From the NCBI GenBank assembly GCA_030248195.1, contig JASAND010028444.1, positions 24,936 to 88,935 of the forward strand: a stretch of 64,000 nt of DNA. Direction: 5' to 3'. This DNA comes from Trissonchulus latispiculum (Eukaryota > Nematoda > Enoplea > Enoplida > Ironidae). Below, piece after piece: positions 23,930 through 57,744 of the stretch; the first letter of the stretch is position 1, and each line of letters begins with the position of its first letter. The notes under the pieces were generated by a model, which was not told the DNA's origin, searched no databases, and worked only from the letters and a program-made list of their open reading frames with translations. The translations under genes and the position numbers were made by a program.

Positions 23930-24215
23930 TCTCCCTCTGGAGCGTCCCTAACCCTCCCCCAGAATTCGGACCACAGAAATGTCAAAAATGGACAAAAATA
24001 AAAATTTCTGTATTTTAACCTTTTCTTCAAAACAAGGCTTGTTTTTATCACAACCAACCAACCAATCCCCCAACTCACCTCCAAAATGTTTCTACTTTTG
24101 TTCCAAAAATCGCCTTTAAGCCGCATTTCCAAAGGCCAAAAAAGGTGGCGGTGAAGTAGATTTTGACAGCTCGCCCGAACTTTTTGGGGGCCTCCCCTCA
24201 GGAGCAGGACCCCCA

Positions 24216-24505
24216 ACGTTCGTCAAACTAGCAGAAGCCCAACAACTACAAATTATATGGCTGTATCTACATTACTTAACTCATCATGTAGTATTGCGTA
24301 GTTATCTTAGTTTTATTTGTAGTAAAAAGAATTGCGATAACAACAGCCACAAAAATCTTCTGCGTAATTGACGCTTAGCCAGTGTGTAGCTAACCTTTTA
24401 CACATAAATTTTCAGTAACCACTACAAACTATTTTACCGCTTTTAATGAATGCTATATTTAAAGCCAAGTATTACAAGCACAATTGTTTTATTTGTAGTT
24501 CTATA
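24216..24505 (+). repeat. Left terminal inverted repeat of the MULE
   Basis: About 290 bp alignable to the reverse complement of 32245-32536, with the outermost 87 bp nearly identical and the inner part diverged by substitutions and small indels. The decamer AACTACAAAT or its complement ATTTGTAGT(T) recurs several times within it, a plausible set of transposase-binding sites. Confidence 0.88.
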
Positions 24506-25747
24506 AATTTATAAATTTTACAATATCATTAAATTTATGCTTAGGTGTTGGCTTTTAGAACTGATGAGAGGAGACGGGGGAAGTATGAAACGACATTGAA
24601 TTGTGCAAAGTGGAAAAAGTGAAAACAGCCTCCCCATACGGGAAGAGCATGCGGAATCGCAGTAATGTAACAGGAACCTAGTCTCGCTGCATCGCATTAC
24701 ACACAGAAATTATACCTATGGAAATAGAAACCAAAGGATGACTGACGCTATAATGATGATTGCATGTCGGTGCAAAAAAAGTTAAAAAGTCGTTAAGAAC
24801 AATAATAGAAGTATTTGGGTTTGAGGGAGACTGGCACCTGCGAAAAATTTTGGACCCCTTTGAATATACATAAACGTCCTGAACACATATAAAAAATTCT
24901 TACAACGATAGTTCTTTCGGTAAGATTTCGACTTCAAATACTACAACAGTTTTCCTATTCTAAAAATTTGGCCATTTTGCCGCTCGTCTTCAGAGCGTAG
25001 CATACTCCCGAGTCCCGAGACTCTATCAACTTTTGCTGGAGGTTAAAAAATACGAGATCACCGCCAAGGTCCAGTTACACCTATGCATATGCGTTACGTA
25101 TATATACGTACATACCTACGTAGTTGGTAATGCAAAAGTCTGAACTAATCTGTACTCGTTGGAAAACACCACTAAATTTAATTTCCCGTATCATTACAAA
25201 CTATACGTATACCGTACCGTTGTAGGAAACAATAAATTCAACCGACAACAAATTGAATACACACGTAAGTACGTACATATAGACAGTATAGATCTGGCTA
25301 AGTATTAAGGAAGTAGTAAGTATTAACCGTACTCGGGAAGGGGGGCATCCCCCCCACCTATTCGACTAACTCAGCGGCCCCCCTTTCCAGGACCCCCCTA
25401 AAATGCCATCCTCCCATAACCCAAAAAGTTACCAAAGTACCATTTTTACCCTGAATTTTCAAAAAGCTTCTAGCTTAAAACACTAGTCATTTTTAGTGAG
25501 TAAAAGTTCAGTTCAGCAAAAGTAAAGTAAAAGTACAAGTAAAAACGTAAACATTTGGAAATGTTTCCAAAAATGTCCCCTCCATTTCGGGCAAGCCCCA
25601 AATACAAATTGCCAAGAAATTAGGCCAGTATAAATTCTACCGTTTAATCAGACCAGGGCTATGCTATGCACCGAGAAAAGCACCGAGTAAAATTTTTGAA
25701 CTTGAAAAAAATATACATGGAGCATCTTTATCCATCAAGATCCAACA

Positions 25748-28700
25748 TTATATGGTGTACAAAAGGACATGAGCGTTCACAGTTAGAGAACCCTTAACTG
25801 AAACTGGTCGATCCGCAAAGTCATCAAGACATTCCCATCTACAGTTGGAGCGACGGCTGTAGGCAACATAATGTCCGATTCCTTTACCTACAGGGGGCGA
25901 GAAATGGATAACTGCTCTGAGATACATTGTTTTCCCAACATCTAACTCCATAGGAAAATTCTCAAGGGCTTTCAGATTAGTGGGATCGTGGTAGTCATCA
26001 GGTGCCTCAGTATCAAGCGGAATAACACCACCAACCTCAATGAAGACGTGATCAACAAATTTGCGCGTCTTCTGGACAAATCCGTTGCATAGACGATTTT
26101 TGGAAACTGCTGGATTAAACTTATAAAATCCACCTGGCACTGCTAACTCTTTCGAAATAATTCTGTCGCAGCTGGTATTCTGCAAGATACCAAGAATTTC
26201 TTGTTCTAGCAATTGCTTATTTTCGACAGTTTCGAATGGAGCTGACACAACAGGAACATTTACGACCAGACTTCGTCTAGGACAGTATGCTGAGGAACAT
26301 TTCTTTTCCTCAACAGCAACTGGAAATTCCTTAAAGACATCGTAGAGAAGGCCTCCAACATTAACTGTGCAATCAACGGAGGTGATTCCATACAAACCTT
26401 CTGTAGCAGTGTATGCTTCTGAAAGAGTTTTTGCTCGCAAAGCATACACTCGAGCTGAAAGCTGCCCAGAGCTGAGCTGCGTGCAAATCTGTAGAGGGAC
26501 ACAACGGGATTCAGTTTCTTTAACCGAAGTCATGAATTTTTCACTGTCAGAACAAGCCGCAGAAAGACCATGAACAATAGCATCAAAAGCACAAGTCGAA
26601 CTAAGATGAATATTTTTAGGACCGACTCTCACACATCGTAGGGTGCTTCCGTTTTTCATCAGTTTCAATTCTGTAGGGCCCCTAGCAGTGGCATAATCGT
26701 AGGAAGCAAGGTTGGGGTTAGTTTCTAAGTACGACCGCCGTTTCCGTTTGGAAGCAGTGCCCAGGTTTCTCCAATTCTCGAATTCGCGAAAATCTTGAAT
26801 CGTATTTGACATTTCTGAATCGCGGTGACATCCTGAGCACACCCTTTTCTGACCGTACCCTTCGTCTTCACCAGACAATTCATAAGAACAGAAGGGTAAA
26901 ACATGAACTGGTCGGCCGCACTTAAAACATACGTGAGCCTCCCCACTTGGAAAATTCCCAACACTACAGGCTAGGCACACCTCCTGAACTTTTTCTGGAT
27001 CAGGACCCTGTTTTTCACATGGACCGGGACGTCTCTCCATTTGTTTCCCACAGGCAAGTTTGACACCACCATCAAGTAACTCTATGTGGTCAAACACAAA
27101 ATCATCAATTCTTAATGGCAATCGTTGACGAAAATCGTTCTTTTTCAGATCTTTGAAGTATGACTCTACTACGGCACTACTTGCTGTGGGATGTCCACTA
27201 GGATAGTATGGGGACATGATAGCCGACCACAATGGATACAGTTTGAAACTCTTAATGATGCGAATCACAATATCTGGCAGATAAAGGATGTTATCTCTGT
27301 CTCCGTCATCAGCTTCGTCCACCTTTTCTTTAGCTCGTGAATGGGCCATATGGGCTATTTCGACAAACGGATTGTCTGCCACCTCAATTTCTTCGACTGC
27401 CAATTCGCGCACATTTTCTTCCGTGAGCACGTCATCGATAATCGTCTGATCATTGGCTGAAATCAGCTTCTTCAGCTCTTTCTTTTTGCTTTCACAGGCA
27501 ACAGCAGTTCCAAGGGATAAGCTGTTTCCTTCCGTTTCTGAAAGAGCAGTGACGAAAACAGCTTCGAGCAGATTATCTACTGCTGTTAAAGATGTAGCTA
27601 GGACAAGCTGGCCAATACAGCGCAAATAAAATTCTTTGATTTTGAAAGATTTATCACGAAGTTCTGGCCATGAGGAAACACTTTTCATTAAATGAGCCAG
27701 GTCAACCCGAAGAAAACAATCAGAAATGTCTGCAGTTCCAGCTAATACGTTCCATTGATTGTTTATGTAAGCATTCACATCCGGAAAAAGCGTGAAGGCG
27801 CGGACACATGCCATCAGAAGCGCCTGTGACATATCGCAAACAACATTCTTTGGAGTTGGAGCACCTGCACTTACCCACTCAGTTAGCCAGTAAGCAAGAT
27901 AATTAGCTCTGTGAATTTCTGATAGTGTTTGCACAACAGGAAAAGAGCAGCCACTTTTCTGGAAAACACCCACACCCGCATACAGATAAATAACTCCACT
28001 TTTCCCACCATTTGGACGGGCTAAATCACGTACAACTTGGCCCGTGGCATCAATGCACAATGTTACTTCTTCTTTTTGAGAAAGTAAGCGGTAAAAATTC
28101 ATCTGAGAATCTGTCCAATAGTGAACATAAAACCGATCGCAAGAAATATCCCTGATTCCCTTGGTCCCACCAGCTGATGTCTTAGCAATACATAAGGCTT
28201 CAATTGGATCTTGGGACAAATGCTTAGCTTTTTTAGCCTGCCACTTGGCAGTGCGTAAAACAGGGGCCGAGTAGATATGCCGATGGGTGGGGTCGCCATA
28301 CGTAATGTCCGTAGCTGCCTTTCGTTTTCTCCAAGTGGAAGCGGAAGTGTTGCAAAGAACGAGTTCCTCAGCTAGCTTGCGCCTTTCGGTTCCCTTCAAA
28401 GGGCGCCGGTTTTCCCCAGAATGCAACTCGTCGTTGCAGTTGCTAAATTCGCAAGAAATGTGAACAGGAGTCTCCGGAGTGGGCTCGTTACTAATCCAAA
28501 ATGATATATCACCCCCGCATTCTCGGCAGGTTGCAGCTGCAGAAAAGTAATTAGCACCTGCAGGAGTAATACAATGCCACCGAAAAGTTAGAATACAGTT
28601 TTTCCGCGTACATTCCCAAATTCGTTTGCTGAAAATGTTAGTCCAGCCGTCCCTCAACCGCAAGCACTTGTTTCCGTTATAGTCCTTAACCTCAGGTTGA

Positions 28701-29086
28701 ATTTGCAGCCATTCGTTGAAAGATAAGGTTAGTACATAAGTCGAACCCGGAACAGACAGTGCATCTTCTGAACATTCAATTTCAGTTTCAGAGTAAAAAT
28801 GATGCTCATCTGCAGGTCTCAAAGGGGTGATCTCGTTTTCTAAAGAATTTGGAGGAGAGGTATCATTAGAAAGAGTCGGTATATTGCGTTTGGCAAACAG
28901 GTATACTGCTTCTTTAGAAAAGTTAGATTCGCTGTTTTCAGAAATAGAACAGCGAAGCTGTTCCCAAATTGGGGATCCGAATGGAGCCAGAGACAGATTC
29001 TCAGTAAAGACCTCCCCTTTTTTCTGCAACATAAGGGCCAGCAGATCATCCTTAGGAAGACTGCACTTTTTCCCAATCCCAACCAT
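25748..29086 (-). CDS. DDE transposase fused to a USP-like (C19) cysteine-protease domain
   Basis: A single uninterrupted 1112-codon ORF. Residues 158-220 have paired cysteines (CRECGGD and others) like an N-terminal DNA-binding zinc region. The catalytic-type acidic residues fall in CIDATG (D346), NVVCDMSQAL (D418) and AVVESYFKDL (E641), and VDLAHLM gives a D462-x2-H465 signature seen in Mutator/hAT-like transposases. A Cys-rich zinc-finger-like segment follows at 704-753 (CLAC, CFKC, CSGC). Residues about 826-1112 resemble a ubiquitin-specific protease: Cys box SSTCAFDAIVHG (C832), His box GIGHYVAYSRR (H1072), then WECLDD (D1088/D1089) and an AHVLLYTI end. The predicted role is cut-and-paste transposition of the surrounding element; the protease role is unknown. 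I chose the Met at 29086 because an acceptor-like TATTTTAG lies 17 bases before it and upstream frames are closed. Domain calls are from motifs by eye. Confidence 0.85.
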   Translation of the reverse strand: MVGIGKKCSLPKDDLLALMLQKKGEVFTENLSLAPFGSPIWEQLRCSISENSESNFSKEAVYLFAKRNIPTLSNDTSPPNSLENEITPLRPADEHHFYSETEIECSEDALSVPGSTYVLTLSFNEWLQIQPEVKDYNGNKCLRLRDGWTNIFSKRIWECTRKNCILTFRWHCITPAGANYFSAAATCRECGGDISFWISNEPTPETPVHISCEFSNCNDELHSGENRRPLKGTERRKLAEELVLCNTSASTWRKRKAATDITYGDPTHRHIYSAPVLRTAKWQAKKAKHLSQDPIEALCIAKTSAGGTKGIRDISCDRFYVHYWTDSQMNFYRLLSQKEEVTLCIDATGQVVRDLARPNGGKSGVIYLYAGVGVFQKSGCSFPVVQTLSEIHRANYLAYWLTEWVSAGAPTPKNVVCDMSQALLMACVRAFTLFPDVNAYINNQWNVLAGTADISDCFLRVDLAHLMKSVSSWPELRDKSFKIKEFYLRCIGQLVLATSLTAVDNLLEAVFVTALSETEGNSLSLGTAVACESKKKELKKLISANDQTIIDDVLTEENVRELAVEEIEVADNPFVEIAHMAHSRAKEKVDEADDGDRDNILYLPDIVIRIIKSFKLYPLWSAIMSPYYPSGHPTASSAVVESYFKDLKKNDFRQRLPLRIDDFVFDHIELLDGGVKLACGKQMERRPGPCEKQGPDPEKVQEVCLACSVGNFPSGEAHVCFKCGRPVHVLPFCSYELSGEDEGYGQKRVCSGCHRDSEMSNTIQDFREFENWRNLGTASKRKRRSYLETNPNLASYDYATARGPTELKLMKNGSTLRCVRVGPKNIHLSSTCAFDAIVHGLSAACSDSEKFMTSVKETESRCVPLQICTQLSSGQLSARVYALRAKTLSEAYTATEGLYGITSVDCTVNVGGLLYDVFKEFPVAVEEKKCSSAYCPRRSLVVNVPVVSAPFETVENKQLLEQEILGILQNTSCDRIISKELAVPGGFYKFNPAVSKNRLCNGFVQKTRKFVDHVFIEVGGVIPLDTEAPDDYHDPTNLKALENFPMELDVGKTMYLRAVIHFSPPVGKGIGHYVAYSRRSNCRWECLDDFADRPVSVKGSLTVNAHVLLYTI

Positions 29087-29434
29087 GAAGTTTAACCAAG
29101 CGTCTAAAATACAATGAATCTATCAACAGGTTGCGCACGAATACTTACCCAGTTTGCTGCATCTGGATAGTGTATAATGTCGATTGAAGTCATCACTTTA
29201 GTGTTCCGTTTTGATCAGCAAGAGCAACTAATTCAGTTTGGGAATGTGCTACATTTAAATAATAAAGACATCTGCTTTTGCAGAAGAATGTAGCACCAGA
29301 CAGCCAAACTTTATTGAAATGCCCTTGTTCCATATATACAGTAAATGCAAATGTGCATTTCAAATATATATATACGTATATACTGCATGATCAGCTGCTA
29401 TTATACCTAAACTAAACACAATATTACCAGCATG

Positions 29435-29793
29435 CAGTAGCGGAGCCAGGATTTTTTGAACGAGGGGACCGAACCCAACATCAGGCGACCTTTTTTGGGA
29501 AACCCAAAATTTTTGTCCAAATTCCCCTAAAATTTTTAAATTCAACAAATTTAACTCAATGGGAGGGGCTCTAAATGAAAGGAGGGACCCTATGTAGAGT
29601 GAAAATTTACACACTTTGTCCCATTTTGGGATGATAAAACGGGCAAATAATAGTTAAAATCGGCAAATTTGCTAAACATAAAAATGTTTGGGAAATTTCG
29701 TAAAAATCGCTGACATTGATTTTTGGATTTTCCAAAGAAAGGTCGACACATTTTAGGGTCGGCCCTCTCCAAATAGTCCTAGCGCCGCCACTG
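29435..29793. mobile_element. MITE of the CAGTRGCGG type inside the MULE
   Basis: Left end CAGTAGCGGAGCCAGGATTT and right end inverted CAGTGGCGGCGCTAGGA. The interior is AT-rich with short G-runs and resembles the copies at 30969-31288 and 45465-46190. No exact flanking duplication could be seen. Confidence 0.7.
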
Positions 29794-30162
29794 TACATGT
29801 ACAAGAATATATATACATTAAAAGCGGAATTTTTGGCATTTCAGAAAAGATGCCCCCACCGGAAATTTATATATATACTTCTTCCCCAGAGTATGAAATC
29901 CTCCGGGGTAAACAAAAAATGGTTAAATTAAAAAAAACAAACTAAATATGCACCTCCAAGGAGATCACAATTGAAAGCAGTGCATAAGAAACCGAGGAGA
30001 AACAAAGGAGATGGTGGGTGGCTCAAAGACTAAAAAAGAAATCACAATTCTTGTGATAGATGTCTGGATAAACTAGGTTATTGTATTCTACTGGGGGGAC
30101 CTATCATAGGTGTACCTTGAGAAAAAGTTGGGGGTGGAGGACGGAGGTAGCCAAAATGAAGG

Positions 30163-30512
30163 CTGGGCTTATTCTAGTGGGGGTGGGTGCTCCCCCCCCT
30201 TCAAAAAAGTGCCCCTAATGGTACCAAACTTTGCCCTGGAAAAGTCGCTCAGAAGGCCAAACTTTCAAAAATTTTCCGGCTTCACCGGAAATTTTCATTC
30301 AATTTTTCCCTTTTCAACACTAAATCTGCTTATTTTTGCGATAAAAATCAACTTTTATAGTATATATATGCCAGAAAAATAGTGCTATTTTAGCATATTT
30401 TACGAAACATTTCGTCCCCCCCCCAAAAAAATTTCTTGCCCCTCGGACTTTTGGGGGCACCCCTCCAAAAGGAGCCCCCACCCCCAAGAAAAAATCCCCA
30501 GAATAAGCCCAG
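30163..30512. mobile_element. G-rich MITE, CTGGGCTTATTCTAG type, nested in a CATAGGTGTACC copy
   Basis: The ends CTGGGCTTATTCTAGTGGGG and CCCCAGAATAAGCCCAG are inverted. The flanking sequence (CATAGGTGTACCTTGAGAAA from 30107, and GGGTGGGG-rich sequence after 30513) matches the interior of the CATAGGTGT-type MITE at 47663-48109, so this copy appears to have landed in an older MITE within the MULE. No exact 5 bp duplication is left. Confidence 0.7.
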
Positions 30513-30968
30513 GTGGCGGGGTGGAGTAGGCCAATTTTGGGTGGGGTGGGTCAGAAAAAATCTAATTGGGCTTCGTGAGTTTAGGGGCGGTTCCCCGCAG
30601 TGCATAAGGTCGTCGAAAAATGGCCAAAAATTGGGTATTTGTAGTGTAATTTTATATAAATTTCTAATTCTTGGCTTAAAGAGTTTATTATTGCGAAAAA
30701 TACACGTTTTTAACTGTATTATGAACTTTCTGACTCAATATTGACGTTATTTTAGACTTGGAAAATACTGGCAATCAAGTTTTCAAGTTTAAAACCACTG
30801 TCTGACGTTAAAATTACTTTATGGTAATAGAGATGTTTTAATTAGAAACGGATGAAACTGCGATTTTTGGCACACGTGAAAAAATTTTTTGGGGAGGGTT
30901 GAATTGAAAGGTCTCCAGCGGAGCGGGGGCCCCCCAAAAATGATGTTGGGGAGAGCCAACAGCTTCCT

Positions 30969-31288
30969 CAGTGGCGGGGCCAGGGGGGGGGGAGGGGGTC
31001 CCGCCCCCCCCCTTTGCGATTTGGGTCCCTCATTTTGGGGTGTCGGCCCTCCCTTTTAAAAATTTTTCAGCAGTTTATATGCATAGTTTGGGTGTTTTTA
31101 GAAGTTTGTTTTAAAAAGTCGGCACATTTTTGCTAAAAATCGAAAAATTTATAATCAAATTTGAGAAATTTTTTGGAAAATGAAGGTAAAATTTGCTAAA
31201 ATTTGGCAAAATTTAGGATTTCTCAATAAAAGGTCGCCGGATTTTTGGGTCGGGCCCCCCCTTTCAAAAAATCCTGGCGCCGCTACTG
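30969..31288. mobile_element. MITE of the CAGTGGCGG type inside the MULE
   Basis: Begins CAGTGGCGGGGCCAGGGGGG and ends ATCCTGGCGCCGCTACTG, which are inverted. The interior has a conserved AT-rich stretch (near 31080-31230) shared with 29435-29793 and 45880-46180. The flanking octamers differ. Confidence 0.75.
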
Positions 31289-32244
31289 AGTATCCCTAGC
31301 ACTTTTTCTAATTTCGGCCATTTTTCAAAGGGCTGGGGGGGCAACCCCCCCCCCGCCTTACACCTATGGGTAAATCTGGAATTTTGGTGGTCGACCTCGA
31401 AATGTGATGGGGGTACCCCCAAGGCCCCAACCCCCTCCCAAAATTCGTATATACCTCAGAAATTTCTAAAAATGGTCAAAAAATTTTCTGTAATTTAGCC
31501 CTTTTTCTTCAAAATAAGGCTTGTTTTTAGCGTTTTAGGCGTTTTTGCACCGTTTTAAAGCGATTTTAAGCCAAAATTTGAGAAAAATTACCATTTTTAG
31601 CCAAAAGTAGCCAAAACTTTTGGGTCCAAAAATCGGTGGGGGGGTAACCGAAAATTGGGGGATGGTAAGTCAAAAAATATGGGGGTACAACAGTTGGATG
31701 TAAATTTTGGGGAGGGATACCCCGCCCCCACGCCCCCCCCCCCAAAAAAACTATGGGGGGGCCCTCCACCCCTAAATCTTGGTTACACTTGTATATATAT
31801 ATGCGATGCCCCCGGGGACAAACTTCCAATTTTTGCGTGGGCGAGGTCTCGGATCTGGGATTTGGCCATTCGGGAGCGGGGTCAGCCTCCAAAATTTCGA
31901 GGGTTGGCTCGAGACTTGTCCCATAGGCTGTGGCTGGGCTAAAGATCTGGGGGGAGGGCCGATGGAGGAAAGGGGGGTCAGCCAAAATTGCCAAAAACTT
32001 CTAAATTGTTTTGGCATTTAGGCCAATTTTGGCCAATAATGGGGGGGGGGCAAATATGGGGGAGGATCGCGGAATTTTGTCATTTTGGTGGGGGTCCCCC
32101 AACCCCTGCCCAGACCCCAGCCCGACGTACACCTATGCTCCAACCCATTCATCGACCCCCCCCCCCCCATTCAACACAGTGGTAGTCAGGATTAACACTG
32201 TTCCGCAAATTTGGCACAACACAAATGTAATGAGTTGTTGAAGA
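31289..32244. other. MULE 3'-side interior filled with G/C-run repeat fragments
   Basis: Several fragments with ACACCTATG ends, G8-11 and C8-11 runs, and the recurrent phrase TTTTAGGCGTTTTTGCACCG near 31535-31560. That phrase is also present, forward or inverted, near 44875, 46630, 46985 and 50660. The boundaries of individual copies are not clear. No coding sequence. Confidence 0.5.
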
Positions 32245-32536
32245 AAGTGATTAACTACAAATTATGTAAACTTCATGTTATAAACGCTGTAATATAGCAA
32301 TCATGTTGAGTGCTCAATTATATTTGTAGTTGTAACCGAAAAGTTATATGTAAAATAGTAGCTACAACCTGGCTTGACGTCAAACATGCAGAAGATTTTG
32401 GTTAAGCTTATATTAAGTTTTTCCTTCAACTACAAATTAAATAAAAGGTACTACGTAATACTACATGATGAGTTATGTAATGTAGATACAGCCATATAAT
32501 TTGTAGTTGTTGGGCTTCTGCTAGTTTGACGAACGT
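32245..32536 (-). repeat. Right terminal inverted repeat of the MULE
   Basis: Reverse-complement partner of 24216-24505. It ends with the TIR terminus at 32536, followed directly by the 9 bp duplication GGACCCCCA. ATTTGTAGTT-like decamers recur in it as in the left copy. Confidence 0.88.
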
Positions 32537-32949
32537 GGACCCCCACCCCATAGGGTGTAACGGGGATTTGGGTTGGGGGGGGCCTCCCCGGAATTTTGGT
32601 GGGCCCCTCCCCCGGAATTTTGGGGGGCCCTACCCCGGAATTTTTGGGGGGGGGCCTTTTTTCGACACCGCCAAACCTCCCCCCAAAAAATTTTTCTATT
32701 TTTATGTTAAAAATCGCATTTTCAGCCATTGCTAATGCCAAAAAACATTCAACTATGAAGTAATTTTGACATTAGACAAGGGTTTTAAACTCGAAAACTT
32801 GATTGGCAACATGTTTCTAAGTCTAGAATAAGGTCAATATTAAGCCAGAAAGTCCATAAAACCGTTAAAAACGCGTATTTCTAGCAATAATAAACACTTT
32901 AAGCCCAAAATTTTGACTTTTTTGAAAAATTTTGCAGAATTTACCCTAA

Positions 32950-40754: not shown

Positions 40755-42677
40755 TCAGTATTCGACCATAATAATGTCGTCAGGGCGATGGTCATCCCGT
40801 GGATGGGGTTCCAATGGATTGGAAATCAGGATGTAAGCCGCCGGAGAATAGACGTTCTTCTCCTGGCCTTCAGGCGCGCATCCCATGATATGGATCCCGT
40901 GACGATTGGGACCAAGGTCAATCGGCTGGTTCCGAAGCACAGCCGGCGCGTCCTTGCGATGGAAAGGCGGCGCGGGCTTTCCTTGACGATAATTCTCGGC
41001 TGCTGCCTGGATGCGTTGACGGACGACCTTGCGATAGGCCTCCATCTCATCGTCCGGCAGGGGTTGTCGGTTGTACCGGTCAACCCAAAGCTCATCCGGA
41101 CCGGCTTGCATGAACCACAAGCCCATTTCCGTGTAGAGACAGCCTTGGATATTCCGACCATCCCATCGATCCGGGTCGAAGATCCAATTTTCTCGCCCAT
41201 AGGTACGGATATCATCCGGCCTCAGGTCCTGGCGGAGCCGGGCGCCGATGCCCCACCATGGATCCTGTGAAGCTTTCCCATACAAGCAACCGATCGTTTC
41301 GACCAGCTCGTCCTGCATTTCCGGAGAATTGTAGAGGGCGTGATACATGATCAAGCGCTGGGTCAACTGATCGGCCCCAGATTGCCACATCTGAAGGCGA
41401 CACGGATGGTAGGCAGCCATCAGTCGATCCGTCTCGCGCTTTATGGTGTAACCATCCGCCTGGCTTTCTCGCCACACCAGCTCACAGACGTCCTCGGCAT
41501 TGCAGTGCCAGCCCTTTCGGCCCTGGTACAAATGTTCCTTTGTACGGACGTACTGGCCCTGGAACTGCTCGACAGGCAATGACAAGAAACGCGGGCAGGC
41601 TTCTCCCATCAAAGCACCTTTGGGGAGATCAACAATCCGGTCACTTCCATTGTAGACACGAATGTAAGCGACTTTTTGGGTCACAACGAGGACCCCAGCC
41701 TGCGGGAACACTCCGTGAGTTTCCATAACCTCGGGTTCAGCCTCAAAAAGCATGAATTGGCGTTCTGGGACGGTGACACCGCCCGGCATGACAGCCTTTA
41801 CAGGGACATCCTTTTCCCTGTTCGGGAGTACACGGACTCGCTCCCGAATACACAAATTGACAGACGCAGCAAGAGGAATATTGTAAACACAAGCTATCCC
41901 CTGCAGCTCGGCACTGTTCAAAAACAGTATACGTCCACCACTGTAATCCATAAAACCGCGTTTTGGATTCAGTGAGAAGCCCAAATCATGCAAGAAATCA
42001 AATCCAATCAACATTTCTTGCAACAGCTCAGAAACAACATAGAATCGGTGTGTCAGGTTTTCCGGAACATAGCCATAACCGGATACAAAACGCATTGACA
42101 GCTCACATTGACCGAGAATGGTAAGGGTGTTACCCTCACCCGCTGCAGCAATAGACGGCATAGGAGCTTCTGTCATCGGTGTCACCGCATGACCCTTTAC
42201 TCGCTCGTAAAATTCCTTGGAGACCAAGGAGATAGAGGCTCCAGTGTCGACAAGGCCAAGGGCAGTGACCTCATTTATACGTACCAGCACATATGGTGTA
42301 TGCTTCAAAGAAACAGAGGCTCCATTGGACACAAAGAAAACACACTCACCCTCCATAACCTCGCGGACCGTGTCACGGATACCGCCTTTCGCGACCTTAG
42401 CCGAAGCATCCGACTCATCGGGGTCGCTAACCTCTTTGGAGGTCGACGGTTGATCCAACCTGTCCATAGATTCGGCGGCTGCAGATGCCTGTTCGACAAG
42501 CATCGCCGCATCTTCCGAGCGATATTTCTTCGTGAAAGCTCTCAGAACCTCCTCAAAGTCCTCCATTTTCTCGACGACTCTCTTCGCCGACGAAGCCACC
42601 TTCGTTGTGAATGTGTTAGAAGGGAGCATAGGTGTGTTTGGGGTGGGGTGGGCGCCCCTTCCCCCAAATGGAGTCAT
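40755..42677 (-). CDS. Retropepsin-containing retroelement protein with an unrecognised C-terminal half
   Basis: A 640-codon ORF. The first ~18 codons come from adjoining MITE sequence; native coding seems to start near 42626 (residue ~19, SNTFTTKVAS). Residues 127-235 form a retroviral-type aspartyl protease: active site ALGLVDTGASISLV (D144), then MLIGFDFLHDLGF at 222-234, matching the ILG motif and flanking helix. Residues about 260-640 are Trp/Arg/Asp-rich (QDPWWGIGARLRQDLRP, WIFDPDRWDGRN) and I do not recognise them. There is no RT motif such as YxDD. The codon use is more GC-rich than the surroundings. The element reads towards the LTR at 38680. Upstream gag-like sequence and the 5' LTR are missing. 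Confidence 0.75.
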   Translation of the reverse strand: MTPFGGRGAHPTPNTPMLPSNTFTTKVASSAKRVVEKMEDFEEVLRAFTKKYRSEDAAMLVEQASAAAESMDRLDQPSTSKEVSDPDESDASAKVAKGGIRDTVREVMEGECVFFVSNGASVSLKHTPYVLVRINEVTALGLVDTGASISLVSKEFYERVKGHAVTPMTEAPMPSIAAAGEGNTLTILGQCELSMRFVSGYGYVPENLTHRFYVVSELLQEMLIGFDFLHDLGFSLNPKRGFMDYSGGRILFLNSAELQGIACVYNIPLAASVNLCIRERVRVLPNREKDVPVKAVMPGGVTVPERQFMLFEAEPEVMETHGVFPQAGVLVVTQKVAYIRVYNGSDRIVDLPKGALMGEACPRFLSLPVEQFQGQYVRTKEHLYQGRKGWHCNAEDVCELVWRESQADGYTIKRETDRLMAAYHPCRLQMWQSGADQLTQRLIMYHALYNSPEMQDELVETIGCLYGKASQDPWWGIGARLRQDLRPDDIRTYGRENWIFDPDRWDGRNIQGCLYTEMGLWFMQAGPDELWVDRYNRQPLPDDEMEAYRKVVRQRIQAAAENYRQGKPAPPFHRKDAPAVLRNQPIDLGPNRHGIHIMGCAPEGQEKNVYSPAAYILISNPLEPHPRDDHRPDDIIMVEY

Positions 42678-51637: not shown

Positions 51638-53272
51638 ATGAGTGCTGCTGTTTCTTGTGAAAAGAATGATCATAGAAAGGAAAACACCGGCTGCTCTGAA
51701 AACAATGTTGGGGAGGAAGAAGAGGTGGAGGACGTTGATCTGTCCAGTGACTCCATTGCCCCCGGCGTCTGTTCAGGGGAGTCTCTGTTTCCTCCACCTG
51801 TTGACAAGGCGCGTCATCGTGTGTCAACCATTGCGGAAATCTGTGGAGCCGCTGGATTCCTGCCGCCCTCTGGTTCCAGTGGGACTGATCTGGAATCGCT
51901 GTCAAACGGGATGTCTGGTTCCGGCTCTGAAGAGTTAGAAACAGAATCAGGGACCCGAGGACTTCTTGACTCTGCTGAACCCTCTTGTTCGGGTGTCAGT
52001 GGAAGGAGTAATGACGATGACTCATCGTCTTCGACTGCCGATGCTGCCGCTGTCATACAGCGACAGCGGTCCGAAGACCATAAGCGAGCTGAAGAGGATC
52101 CCTGGCTGATGATTCAAAAATCTGACACGCATATTTTTGTTCTTTCTGAGGCGGGAAAGCCAATCTATTCCAGGTTTGTAGCTTTTGCTTTGGTTCATAG
52201 TTTCTGTTTTGCACTCAGCGTTACAGCTGGTAAATTGTTGTATGGTTTTTACTTTTTAACTGGGTTTCCCCACTGCTTTTGGTTTCCCCCACTTTTTGGC
52301 CTTTCCCCAACTCACTAAAAGATGAACAGAAAATAAAGAAGTTTTTATGTTTTTCAACGTGTTCATTACTCGCCGGATTTGTTTGATTAAAATCGTCTAT
52401 GTTAGTACTAAAACTAAATTATTTGAGCATTATTCTGCTTTGTTAATTAATAAGTGAACTTACGTGAAAACGTAGTTAATTTTTTGTTGTTAGCTATTTA
52501 TATCTATCATTCCACCATTTTTGATCCAGTGAGGAAGGACTGTGTGCCCCACGCTACTTTTACTTCTAGACAAAGTAAACTCAGTATACGTGTCTGGCTT
52601 TTTCCTAGGCAAAAATTTCTGGGGGGGGGGAAGTCGGGGGGGGGGGCTGGGATTTCTGGGGGGGGAAGAAAAATTTTTCAAAAAAATGCCTAAAAATAGC
52701 TATTTTTTGCTGCTAAGCTAAAAAATTAACTGTTTTTAACTTAAATTTAAGCTTAAAATAGCTTAAAAATGCTTAAAAACGGGTTAAAATCCGGCGAAGC
52801 CGGAAAATTTTTTCAAAATTTACCCTCAAAACCCTATTTTTCCGGGCATTTTGGAGTTCTGGGGGGGAAGGCCCGAATCCTGGGGGGGCGACCCAAGTCT
52901 AGGGGGGGAACGAAATTCTGGGGGGGGGGTGGCCCCCCCCCCCACCCCGTAGGAAAAAGCCAGCGTGTATTGTACAATGACATTTGCTGTCTTAGTTCTT
53001 GAGACAGTGTATATATACGTATTCGTACATATGCTTATTTTCTTGGTTACAGAAGAGGCAGTGAAGAGCTGTTGTCGTCAGTGATGTCTGTTGCTCAAGC
53101 CTTGTATTCAGTGATAGCCAGTAACAGTGATAAGCTGTTAAGCATACAGGCTGGTCGCTCAACTCGCTTAGTCTTTCTGTATAGATCGCCATTGCTACTG
53201 GTAGCCAGTTCTAGATATCACTTTGAAACTATTTCCCACATGAGATTACAACTTGAGTATGTTTATCAGGCG
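51638..53272 (+). CDS. MON1: MON1 (vacuolar fusion protein), first two coding exons (partial)
   Basis: MON1 with CCZ1 forms the GEF that loads GTP on Rab7 during endosome maturation and vacuole/lysosome fusion. Exon 1 is 51638-52173 (donor GTTTGT), exon 2 is 53053-53272 (acceptor TTACAG, donor GTGAGT). They join in phase 2 to give 252 codons. Residues 1-160 are an acidic, Ser-rich, presumably disordered tail (GEEEEVEDVD, DDDSSSS). Longin domain 1 begins with HIFVLSEAGKPIYSRRGSEE, the family signature, and continues through RLVFLYRSPLLLVASS. Vertebrate and fly MON1 exceed 500 residues, so about half is missing; I found no further exon up to 64000. The intron contains a G-rich MITE. The start Met gives the usual disordered N-terminus but could differ by upstream exons. 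Confidence 0.9.
52594..52963. mobile_element. G-rich MITE, CTGGCTTTTTCCTA type, 5 bp duplication, in MON1 intron
   Basis: CTGGCTTTTTCCTAGGCAAA at the left and inverted CTGGCTTTTTCCTACGGGG at the right. A perfect 5 bp duplication CGTGT lies at 52589-52593 and 52964-52968. The interior has G8-G10 runs on both sides of an AT-rich centre holding CCGGCGAAGCCGG. It ends about 90 bp before MON1 exon 2 without touching the splice site. Confidence 0.9.
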
Positions 53273-54277: not shown

Positions 54278-56803
54278 TTATTCAAAATAATCGGAAAAAT
54301 CAAGATTTATCAGGTTCTTAACAATTCTAAAACATAATACAATATCATTTATAATTCTACGGTATTCCAAGCTTTCTAAGTTCAATACAGACAACCTTTC
54401 TGGATAAGTACAATTATTGCATCCACGTAAACGCTTCGTAAACGACCTTTGGACCCTCTCCACTTTATCTATATCTTTCAATAAGTAAGGAGACCATTTC
54501 GGTGTAATATATTCTAGCAGCGGCCTAACAAAGGTTTTAAACAGATCTATAAGGAATTCAGGTTTTGTTGTTTCAAATACTCTTAAAATTCTAGAGGAGA
54601 GTATATGAGCGTTTCTACAAATCTTATTACAATAATCAGCCACTTTCTGATCCCCAGACAACAACAACCCTAAATCAGAGACGCTATTGACTTGGTCGAG
54701 TGCTTTTCCCATCAAATTTAGGTTTAAAAACTCTGTGCTACCGATAGTTAGGGCCAAACATTTATGTGTAGCTAGGTTTAACTGCCATTTTTGCGCCCAC
54801 TCCCCAACTTTGTTTAGATCTAACTGTAAATTATTACACTGGCAAGACTTCGTACAAACAGTATACACTTTGGCATCATCAGCAAATAACTCTACGGAAC
54901 TATACTGTACAACTTCAGGCAAGTCATTTATGTACAACAAAAAAAGAACTGGACCCAAGACCGATCCTTGTGGTATGCCACTTGTAACTGGCAAGCTTTC
55001 AGAATACTCCCCGTTTACAATTACTTTATGGGATCGATCTCTTAAAAAGCATCTTATCCAGTCTAGTACCAAACCCGAAATTCCATATCTTTCAAGTTTA
55101 AAAATTAGCTTTTCGTGAGGTACAGAGTCAAAAGCACGAGCAAAATCTAAGTAAACACAATCAACTCGTTTACCCTGATCCCTAGCTATACACCACGAAT
55201 GCATGCACGACAGCAAGTTTGTCAGCGTTGACTTGCTTTTACGGAAACCATGCTGATTCTTATTAATTAGTTTATATTTTATAAAGAAATTCCAGAGATC
55301 TTCCACTATAATGGTTTCCAGTATCTTGCAAACCACTACTGTCAAACTAACTGGTCTATAGTTAGCAGGATCAGTACTACGTCCTTTCCTTTTATAAATA
55401 GGCACAACTGTTGCAGTTTTCCACTGGTCAGGCAGAGTACCGGTTTGCAGAGATGCACTAAATAACATGCACAACACATCACATACAGACGGCAAAATTT
55501 TCTTTAGTACATAACAAGATAAACCATCAGGTCCACAAGATTTTTTATTGTTCATTTTCTTTAAAGCTTTCTCAATTCGAGGTGGTGTAATATCAATATT
55601 TTCTAATTTATGTACTGTGCGGTAAGGAAATTCCGGTAATTCTCCGTTATCCAACTGGTACACAGAGGCAAATACAGAGTTCAACATATTTGCTTTTTCA
55701 ACATCTGTTACAGCTGACACATTCTCCCTTGTAAGTACACCAATTCCATCAATTCCTTTTAATTTTGAGTTGACGTAAGTATATAATCGCTTTTTATCCC
55801 CAGAACGTACAATGGATTCCTCTTTTCGTCGAACAGTCATTCTTATTGCGTTTCGAGCATTTTTTGCTGCTTGCCTATAACAATTTCTGTTTTCAAAATT
55901 TGGGTTTTCTCTAAATCTGTGCCATGCACGACGTTTTTTAACCAAGGCTTTGTTGACTTCCCGTGGCCACTTTGACTTGTGCTTATTTACAGAAACAGTA
56001 GGTACATAACAATGCATTGCATAATTGACAATTTGCACAAAAGAAGACCAATCACTGTTTAAGTCTCCAGACAAAATAGTTTCCCAATCAACACTGAACA
56101 AAAATTCATTCATACCATCGAAATTCCCATTTTTTACATCGAATTTTTCGGATCTAGGCACACTTTTATTAATTTTATTGATTAAAATTTCAAAATCAAC
56201 CGTATTATGATCGCTAGTGGAGAAGGGTAACGATATGTCAACATTATTGATAATATCTTCATTATTTGATAAAACTAAATCTAATATATTGCTCTCCCTG
56301 GTTGGTGAATTCACATGTTGAAATAAACCAATTTCATTGAAAAGATTCAGAAATTCCGTTTCAATTCCGCTTGAACTTCTATATTCCTCCCAGTTTACGC
56401 CAGGAAGGTTAAAGTCCCCCACTAACAAAGTATTACTTAATTGACATTGAGTACGTAAGCATTCAATCAATTCGTTATCAGCCTGCATAGAAGAAGTAGG
56501 TGATCGATATACCACAACACAATGTAATTTTAACCTTCCCAAGTAAACTTTAACAATCAATATTTCACAAAAACCCATAAAACTACAAGCAAAAACTGGC
56601 TCAGTAGGTAAGTTATGGCGCACTAGCATACAACATCCTCCGTGACCCCTTTCTGCTCTATCACTTCTATAAATTTTGTAATTGGGAAGTCCACATAATT
56701 CTGAGTCTACAATTTCCTCCTTTGCCCATGTTTCAGTAATAAAGACAATATCTGGATTTTTTGAGTTAATTTCCAGTTCCAATTCACTCCTTTTGTTCGT
56801 CAA
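54278..56803 (-). CDS. LINE ORF2: AP endonuclease and reverse transcriptase (broken at the C-terminus)
   Basis: Residues 1-210 are an APE-type endonuclease (FITETW, VVYRSP, LLVGDFNLPGVNW, ILDLVLSN, TSDHN). Residues about 415-680 are a reverse transcriptase (CGPDGL, ANYRPVSL, QHGFRKSKST, YLDFARAFDSVPH with D553, SGIPQGSVLGPVLF, and the catalytic ELFADD at 638-643). In life it nicks the target and primes cDNA synthesis. No ATG is seen near the N-terminus. The frame stays open upstream through LLNAQ, the start of the endonuclease fold, to about the ORF1 stop, so translation probably depends on reinitiation or frameshifting from ORF1. The frame is stopped at 54278, before the usual end. Confidence 0.9.
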   Translation of the reverse strand: MTNKRSELELEINSKNPDIVFITETWAKEEIVDSELCGLPNYKIYRSDRAERGHGGCCMLVRHNLPTEPVFACSFMGFCEILIVKVYLGRLKLHCVVVYRSPTSSMQADNELIECLRTQCQLSNTLLVGDFNLPGVNWEEYRSSSGIETEFLNLFNEIGLFQHVNSPTRESNILDLVLSNNEDIINNVDISLPFSTSDHNTVDFEILINKINKSVPRSEKFDVKNGNFDGMNEFLFSVDWETILSGDLNSDWSSFVQIVNYAMHCYVPTVSVNKHKSKWPREVNKALVKKRRAWHRFRENPNFENRNCYRQAAKNARNAIRMTVRRKEESIVRSGDKKRLYTYVNSKLKGIDGIGVLTRENVSAVTDVEKANMLNSVFASVYQLDNGELPEFPYRTVHKLENIDITPPRIEKALKKMNNKKSCGPDGLSCYVLKKILPSVCDVLCMLFSASLQTGTLPDQWKTATVVPIYKRKGRSTDPANYRPVSLTVVVCKILETIIVEDLWNFFIKYKLINKNQHGFRKSKSTLTNLLSCMHSWCIARDQGKRVDCVYLDFARAFDSVPHEKLIFKLERYGISGLVLDWIRCFLRDRSHKVIVNGEYSESLPVTSGIPQGSVLGPVLFLLYINDLPEVVQYSSVELFADDAKVYTVCTKSCQCNNLQLDLNKVGEWAQKWQLNLATHKCLALTIGSTEFLNLNLMGKALDQVNSVSDLGLLLSGDQKVADYCNKICRNAHILSSRILRVFETTKPEFLIDLFKTFVRPLLEYITPKWSPYLLKDIDKVERVQRSFTKRLRGCNNCTYPERLSVLNLESLEYRRIINDIVLCFRIVKNLINLDFSDYFE

Positions 56804-56883
56804 GCACTGTGCATTCAGCAGCGTGCAGTTTAAAATCTCTATACTATTAACTTGGCTTTGTGGGGGGCGAGGACCAGCGCGCC

Positions 56884-57744
56884 TTAGTTTACCTGTACAA
56901 CATGACCAGTCACCTTATCAATAATACATCCATTCCTAATCACTGCATTTCCATTTGATTCTCTGGCTTTCTCCAACATCTGACGAAGCTTCCGGTCATC
57001 CTCCCGTTGTCTAAATGTCAAGTCGGCCCGGGACCAGATTTTGTCCCAGTGATCCTTTTCAGTCCGGAGATTCTTCACATTGGCAATGAAAGTCGATCTG
57101 GCTTCGTTATGGCTGAATTTGAGCTTCATAATTCTGGGTTTGCCATCTTTCCTCTTGGAACCGTCACGGTACACGTCCAGGAGACAGGAATCGTCTATAT
57201 CTAAACACTGAAGAATATCTTTCACTTCGGATAGATCAGCCTCCCGGGCTTCCGCCATCGTCAATACCTTACCCTCAGCACCTACTTGCTCAGGCAAGCC
57301 GAACAGAACCGCTTTATCCTTTTTCTCTTGCTGTTCCATAACATCACACATCTCAGCCCGAACCTGAGAAGTAGTTATGGAGGGAGGCTGGGCCTCCAGC
57401 TTGGCAATTCGACTGATCACATCCGACATTTGGGTTTCCAGGGCTACAACCCGGTCAGATGTCAGGCTCGGCTCAGAATTCCGTGCTAAAGTTTGCCCAG
57501 CCAACAAGTTCGTAAGCTTGGAAACACATTCATCACAGTTATAAGTTAAAACGGCCAAAACTCCCTGATCAATCTTTTTGAAAACATTGTCCGAAATACC
57601 GACACAGGCCGGATGAAAATCGGATGCACAAAATTTGCAGGTGATTCGGTGGTCCATGGACCCGATCTTGGCGGTTTTATTGCGGCAAATTGCAGCAGCA
57701 CATAACAAATCGGTAGCCATAGCACAAAAAGGGCCAATCTCCAA
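56884..57744 (-). CDS. LINE ORF1: PHD-like zinc finger and RRM-like RNA-binding protein
   Basis: 286 codons. Residues 15-73 have spaced cysteines and a histidine (CKFC, HPAC, CDEC) typical of a PHD finger. A helical, probably coiled-coil region follows (residues ~95-140, VVALETQMSDVISRIAKLEA). The region ~145-250 has the ORF1 RRM-like pattern (AVLFGLPEQ, KPRIMKLKF, LTFRQREDD). It probably binds the element RNA as a chaperone. The stop at 56884-56886 lies within the open frame of ORF2's extreme 5' part. Confidence 0.85.
   Translation of the reverse strand: MEIGPFCAMATDLLCAAAICRNKTAKIGSMDHRITCKFCASDFHPACVGISDNVFKKIDQGVLAVLTYNCDECVSKLTNLLAGQTLARNSEPSLTSDRVVALETQMSDVISRIAKLEAQPPSITTSQVRAEMCDVMEQQEKKDKAVLFGLPEQVGAEGKVLTMAEAREADLSEVKDILQCLDIDDSCLLDVYRDGSKRKDGKPRIMKLKFSHNEARSTFIANVKNLRTEKDHWDKIWSRADLTFRQREDDRKLRQMLEKARESNGNAVIRNGCIIDKVTGHVVQVN

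Follow-up and report, generated by a model that had tools for sequence, protein, structure and literature searches.

Does the DNA between two short direct repeats in a 64,000-nucleotide stretch of the nematode Trissonchulus latispiculum (contig JASAND010028444.1, positions 24,936 to 88,935 of the forward strand; hereafter the window, in whose numbering coordinates are given) constitute a complete transposon, and does the protease-like end of its one long gene belong to the transposition machinery? A first-pass annotation had proposed a complete Mutator-like transposon encoding a transposase fused to a ubiquitin-specific protease (USP), an arrangement that it did not recognize as described. The analysis below showed that this interpretation was largely right, although the claim of an undescribed arrangement was overstated. 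The locus is almost certainly a complete transposon carrying a transposase–USP fusion. Taken as a whole, we put at roughly 65% the probability that it is a cut-and-paste transposon of the Mutator/IS256-like type that is intact and probably autonomous, and whose single transposase–USP protein contains a deubiquitinase acting in cis.

Anatomy of the element

The element spans positions 24216–32536 (8,321 bp) between two perfect 9-bp direct repeats GGACCCCCA. Recomputation reproduced these repeats, the terminal inverted repeats (TIRs) with two differences in their outer 87 bp, and the intact open reading frame (ORF) of 1112 codons, all as first annotated. The features are:

24207–24215: left copy of the 9-bp target-site duplication GGACCCCCA, from a repeat search and a mismatched-flank control
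24216–24500, plus strand: left TIR, ~285 bp, on the 3′ side of the ORF, with the terminus ACGTTCGTCAA common to the copies C10191 and C2085
24245–24499: four copies of the motif TTTGTAGT/ACTACAAA in the left TIR, starting at 24245 (minus), 24316 (plus), 24421 (minus) and 24492 (plus); candidate transposase-binding sites
25748–29086, minus strand: intact single ORF of 1112 amino acids, comprising an N-terminal region, DDE transposase core, zinc finger and USP-fold protease
25751–26785, minus strand: modelled C-terminal stretch (residues 768–1112), a linker and the USP-fold protease (residues ~802–1112) with Cys832, His1072 and Asp1088
26804–26941, minus strand: zinc finger (residues 716–761), Pfam Znf_SCAND3, E 6.6e-8
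26987–28393, minus strand: RNase H-like transposase core (residues 232–700) with Asp346, Asp418 and Glu641
29087–32252, minus strand: 5′ interior, which contains sequences repeated elsewhere in the genome but no ORF above 142 amino acids
32253–32536, minus strand: right TIR, with motif starts at 32254 (minus), 32323 (plus), 32429 (minus) and 32500 (plus)
32537–32545: right copy of the target-site duplication GGACCCCCA, from a repeat search

The TIRs start at 24216 and 32536 and align locally over 285 by 284 nt. The two mismatches in their outer 87 bp fall at positions 61 and 81, and the ungapped arms comprise 116 nt at 90% and 80 nt at 79%. Between the TIRs, the uninterrupted 1112-residue frame is the sole ORF longer than 142 amino acids. 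Eight of the 11 occurrences of TTTGTAGT in the window lie inside the two TIRs, spaced inwards from the ends by 71, 105 and 71 nt on the left and by 71, 106 and 69 nt on the right, and at the C2085 locus all 12 occurrences are near its two ends. The first ACTACAAA begins at nucleotide 30 from the end in the window element, C10191, C2085 and C12124. This distance was used to locate an end of C6080, and the sequence found there then turned out to be similar (ACGCGTGTCAA). The ACTACAAA arrays are thus the best candidates for the sites that the transposase would bind.

Independent insertions and sister copies

The repeat GGACCCCCA is weak evidence by itself: by chance the window should contain 0.59 matches (a third copy lies at 32089–32097 on the minus strand), and runs of C are common in the flanks. 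Sister copies supply the proof. When the same genome (733.8 Mb, 21,732 contigs) was searched with the outermost 116 nt of the TIR, five places matched, namely the two ends of the present element, the two ends of C10191 and a single end of C6397. The perfect 9-bp duplication that bounds C10191, CTTCTCCGC, is not the one found here. In C2085 the transposase is 47% identical to that of the window; this copy has the same 11-nt terminus ACGTTCGTCAA, an inverted pair of 205 nt that is 100% complementary, and a third perfect duplication, GAAAAAATG. Both copies carry the same fusion, so that the refuting condition set by the first-pass annotation, TIR-bounded copies with a different transposase, did not hold for them. 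There have been three independent insertions, each with its own perfect 9-bp duplication: GGACCCCCA, CTTCTCCGC and GAAAAAATG.

In 21 loci we looked for 18-nt inverted termini directly adjoined by a 9-bp duplication, using 420 mismatched left/right pairs as the control. Four of the 21 real loci were positive, three of them without a mismatch, compared with five of the 420 mismatched pairs, each of which had at least two mismatches. The other 17 loci scored negative, and some of these run off their contigs. With duplications of 8 and 10 bp, 32 and 13 of the 420 mismatched pairs were positive respectively, and the real loci added no terminus of this kind. For the distant member L017, a 9-bp duplication with TIRs (TTTCCCGTC, three mismatches in 18 positions) is plausible, but it is indistinguishable from the control rate and was set aside.

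An uninterrupted frame over residues 5–1112 or more was present in four copies, including that of the window. C10191 has lost ~1.06 kb and with it the beginning of the ORF (residues 1–167), the reading frame of C2085 is split, and C6397 matches the window only from 30442 to the right end. Among the copies seen, that of the window alone therefore combines an intact gene with two proven ends.

The transposase core and zinc finger

The closest solved structure to the predicted fold of the core was the ISCth4 transposase of the IS256 family (PDB 6xgx), ranked first by both structure aligners at 9% identity. When the sequence of the core was searched against the PDB, the matches were weak and unrelated (best E 0.03). 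In a fold search of the viral library BFVD, the bracovirus protein O92526, of unknown function, was closest to the core (E 1.1e-8). Family members were compared in three alignments: A1 (15 rows, some partial), A2 (18 rows) and A3 (17 rows). Znf_SCAND3 was found in 14 of 15 rows, and its conserved Cys/His pattern resembles C4HC3 (PHD-like) by eye; no PHD profile was among the profile matches of the 15 alignment rows. The ~9-bp duplications of three elements and the long TIRs (~285 bp in the window and the 205-nt pair of C2085) agree with those of Mutator elements, and the element is very probably of a Mutator/IS256-like type.

The USP-fold protease domain

Structure prediction and comparison revealed a USP fold in the C-terminal domain, residues ~802–1112, close to the boundaries of 826–1112 given in the first-pass annotation, so that the proposed fusion of a DDE transposase to a USP-fold protease was borne out. 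The Cys and His boxes were placed with the help of PDB profile alignments. The catalytic residues Cys832 and His1072 are present in all 18 members, and position 1088 is Asp in 12 and Asn in six. The triad Cys, His, Asp/Asn is thus kept in 18/18 members, which are 24–52% identical to the window sequence (excluding the near-identical C10191). Given the predicted fold and the conserved catalytic residues, we think it highly probable that the protease is catalytically active. Its modifier is probably ubiquitin rather than SUMO or another ubiquitin-like protein.

The USP is kept by nearly all of the family

The family search returned 48 matches on at least 36 contigs, and since 41 of 281 candidates were scored this number is a lower bound. 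USP sequence including or beyond the Cys box was found on 34 of the 36 contigs: 28 in the first search, and five plus one more by looking downstream. Six of the eight contigs that first seemed to lack the USP proved to bear it, C14230 only up to profile position 92, leaving C9093 (linker only) and C14476 (which stops near the contig edge). The USP has an identical protein position in members down to 27–31% identity. Distances between members in the transposase and in the USP were tightly correlated (Mantel r 0.973 for 13 members, leaving out rows L013 and L014; none of 10000 permutations reached this value), and disagreement between the two trees was, by eye, confined to weakly supported nodes. 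A peptide-pattern search of IMG/VR viral contigs, made from alignment A1, matched four stretches, none encoding a relative.

The ratio of non-synonymous to synonymous substitution (dN/dS) between the window copy and C10191, the closest pair of copies, estimated over 940 codons (C10191 lacks residues 1–167) by the Nei–Gojobori method with bootstrapping, was 0.064 (0–0.19) for the USP compared with 0.41 (0.21–0.84) for the transposase. Fisher's test on synonymous and non-synonymous counts, rounded both ways, gave p 0.006–0.008 for this difference. We conclude that the USP belongs to the transposon machinery, because it is present on 34 of 36 contigs, co-diverges with the transposase and is the more constrained of the two. 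Judged from these sequence comparisons, it is an old, maintained part of the transposase and not a passenger.

Weighing the interpretation

Several observations weigh against this account. The window protein alone has no Pfam C19 or transposase match even at E 10, and the C19 and transposase calls rest on family profiles and predicted folds. Transglut_core3, another cysteine-protease-like fold, matched two of the 18 C-terminal domains (best E 0.013). Even with E values of up to 10 allowed, the MULE (Mutator-like element) profile PF10551 matched none of the 15 long rows and none of the 17 core rows, and as a positive control 86 places in the same genome did match it. This genome is also rich in canonical MULE transposases, which lie outside the 36 contigs of the USP family. 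A full-length profile comparison with 10 of these 86 places was not significant (P 0.29). Comparison of the core with the 10 places, some of which are near-identical, gave a weak score of 20.9 (P 0.0099, row L013 left out) with a probability of only 4%; none of 100 column shuffles scored as high (highest 19.2). The zinc-finger stretch appeared unconstrained (dN/dS 1.06, 0.08–1.87, from one synonymous and four non-synonymous changes), and the dN/dS contrast itself comprises 17 and 33 changes in one pair of copies. Finally, the two other elements with proven duplications have broken genes, through the C10191 deletion and the split frame of C2085, and the remaining intact ORFs are without proven element ends.

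The Mutator assignment stands by duplications and TIRs, whereas membership of the canonical MULE family is not supported by the sequences. If the transposase belonged instead to another DDE superfamily (hAT- or P-like, or unnamed), its 9-bp duplications would be convergent; we regard this as unlikely, since the duplications are 9 and not 8 bp in three perfect cases, the TIRs are long and ISCth4 ranks first in both aligners. It is known that Mutator elements pick up fragments of host genes (PMC6446971), and the USP part could be such a captured passenger. Its constant position in distant members, its presence on nearly all contigs, its co-divergence and its strong constraint make this extremely improbable.

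The type and activity of the protease leave more room for alternatives. The domain might be a SUMO or other ubiquitin-like isopeptidase of the C98 (USPL1-like) type, which would make the element a counterpart of the Ulp1-carrying Mutator elements. Consistent with this, the VIA Z against USPL1 was 14.7, inside the range of many true USPs, and Pfam Peptidase_C98 matched four of 18 members (best E 0.044). In addition, all 18 members have an Asp three residues after the catalytic Cys, as in USPL1, whereas C19 enzymes usually have Asn there. On the other hand, Pfam UCH (PF00443) matched seven of the 18 members, the window sequence not among them, with a best E of 8.5e-5, and the PDB profile matches were all USPs (USP14, USP2, USP4, USP8/Ubp8, USP15 and USP36), with USPL1 not listed. 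The C19 type named by the first-pass annotation is thus favoured by the sequence profiles but unproven, and the C98 type is the less likely yet credible reading. A domain without protease activity, serving as a ubiquitin-binding or scaffold module like the pseudo-enzyme Pan2, seems rather improbable, as a scaffold need not keep the triad that all 18 members have retained at 24–52% identity. An active USP in a Mutator/IS256-like transposase remains our preferred interpretation.

Proposed mechanism and significance

We propose that the single protein binds the ACTACAAA arrays in the long TIRs, and that its core, with Asp346, Asp418 and Glu641 in a predicted RNase H-like fold, would cut and join DNA, its own ends included. 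Insertion is staggered by 9 bp, as the three different perfect duplications show. The USP-fold domain would then most likely act as a deubiquitinase in cis within the transposition complex. Its substrate may be the transposase itself, which would affect stability, or ubiquitinated chromatin or repair proteins at the donor and target sites; the strong constraint on the USP is compatible with either. For OTU and Ulp1 domains, Bao and colleagues have suggested that they may serve to activate repair factors, either while transposition is under way or afterwards (PMC2836005).

That relatives in the same genome nearly all keep the pairing suggests that the protease aids the movement or survival of the element, and we lean slightly towards its being needed for efficient mobility. 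More tentatively, the family may represent a Mutator/IS256-type lineage, missed by Pfam transposase profiles, in which the USP is obligatory, mobility depends on the removal of ubiquitin at the transposition complex, and the protease is more constrained than the DNA-cutting core.

Transposases of different superfamilies have become joined to three folds of ubiquitin/SUMO-pathway proteases: Ulp1, OTU and now, with the anatomy of the whole element, USP. This convergence suggests that transposition is truly subject to control by ubiquitin signalling. As the present element is intact and low-copy, with a single ORF, defined ends and candidate binding sites, the idea is directly testable by mutating one cysteine.

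Neighbouring sequence

Elsewhere in the window, a 640-amino-acid ORF at 40755–42677 (minus strand) combines a match to aspartyl protease profiles (gag-asp_proteas, E 2.1e-4) with a NADAR match (E 0.001) further along. This pairing is unusual, and all of the matches are below curated cut-offs. A retrotransposon of the LINE (long interspersed nuclear element) type lies at 54278–57744 (minus strand). One of its ORFs matches reverse transcriptase (E 1.5e-32) and endonuclease, and the ORF ahead of it has a weak match to PHD that is below the cut-off (E 7e-4). The ORF at 51638–52318 (plus strand) had no Pfam match at E 0.01; a stretch of it appears to resemble the vacuolar fusion protein MON1. Outside the window, L052/L053 (C17523:28493-29676) is COX1-like. 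Long pieces of it are readable when AGR is taken as Ser and TGA as Trp, as in the invertebrate mitochondrial code, which points to an invertebrate host.

Comparison with known systems

ISCth4 differs from the window element in being bacterial and so distant in sequence, and it is not known to have a comparable zinc finger or protease module. Rehavkus, listed as an outgroup or sister of MULEs (Table 1, PMC6446971), has in common with the window element a 9-bp duplication, a TIR within 26–400 bp and one ORF (PMC6446971). Both transposases have a zinc finger, PHD in Rehavkus (PMC6446971) and the C4HC3-like Znf_SCAND3 here. Rehavkus, however, is listed with a minisatellite before the 3′ TIR (PMC6446971), whereas the window element had no tandem array better than one of 27 bp (score 47) in the interval from the ORF to the 3′ TIR, and membership is not claimed because no minisatellite was found. 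The available text of PMC6446971 does not mention a USP domain for Rehavkus, and the likeness is judged by that description.

Mutator-type elements with a protease of the ubiquitin/SUMO pathway are known from hydra, lancelet and plants, which carry Ulp1 (PMC2836005), and from MuDR-6_HM, which carries OTU (Table 1, PMC6446971); these are of the Ulp1 (C48) or OTU type, not USP. Ginger1 transposases likewise join a DDE core to a C-terminal deubiquitinase or deSUMOylase (OTU or Ulp1), in elements with TIRs of ~40 to 270 bp, but their core is of the Gypsy-integrase type with CCGG/CCGT duplications (PMC2836005), as opposed to a probably IS256-like core with 9-bp duplications here. A protease of the C19 type is carried by the Trichomonas vaginalis protein XP_001314237.1, a fusion of transposase_11 (pfam01609) and Peptidase C19, given in the available text of PMC2836005 as a single protein without element anatomy. 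A transposase–C19 fusion had thus been described before, as had the transposase–OTU and transposase–Ulp1 pairings (PMC2836005, PMC6446971). The words 'ubiquitin', 'protease' and 'peptidase' do not occur in the main text, as available, of PMC13359780. Our literature search was limited, and we do not claim that the arrangement is unpublished; as far as these few papers show, what is apparently new is that a complete element joins a USP to a core of probable Mutator/IS256-like type, and that the USP has been retained in its lineage.
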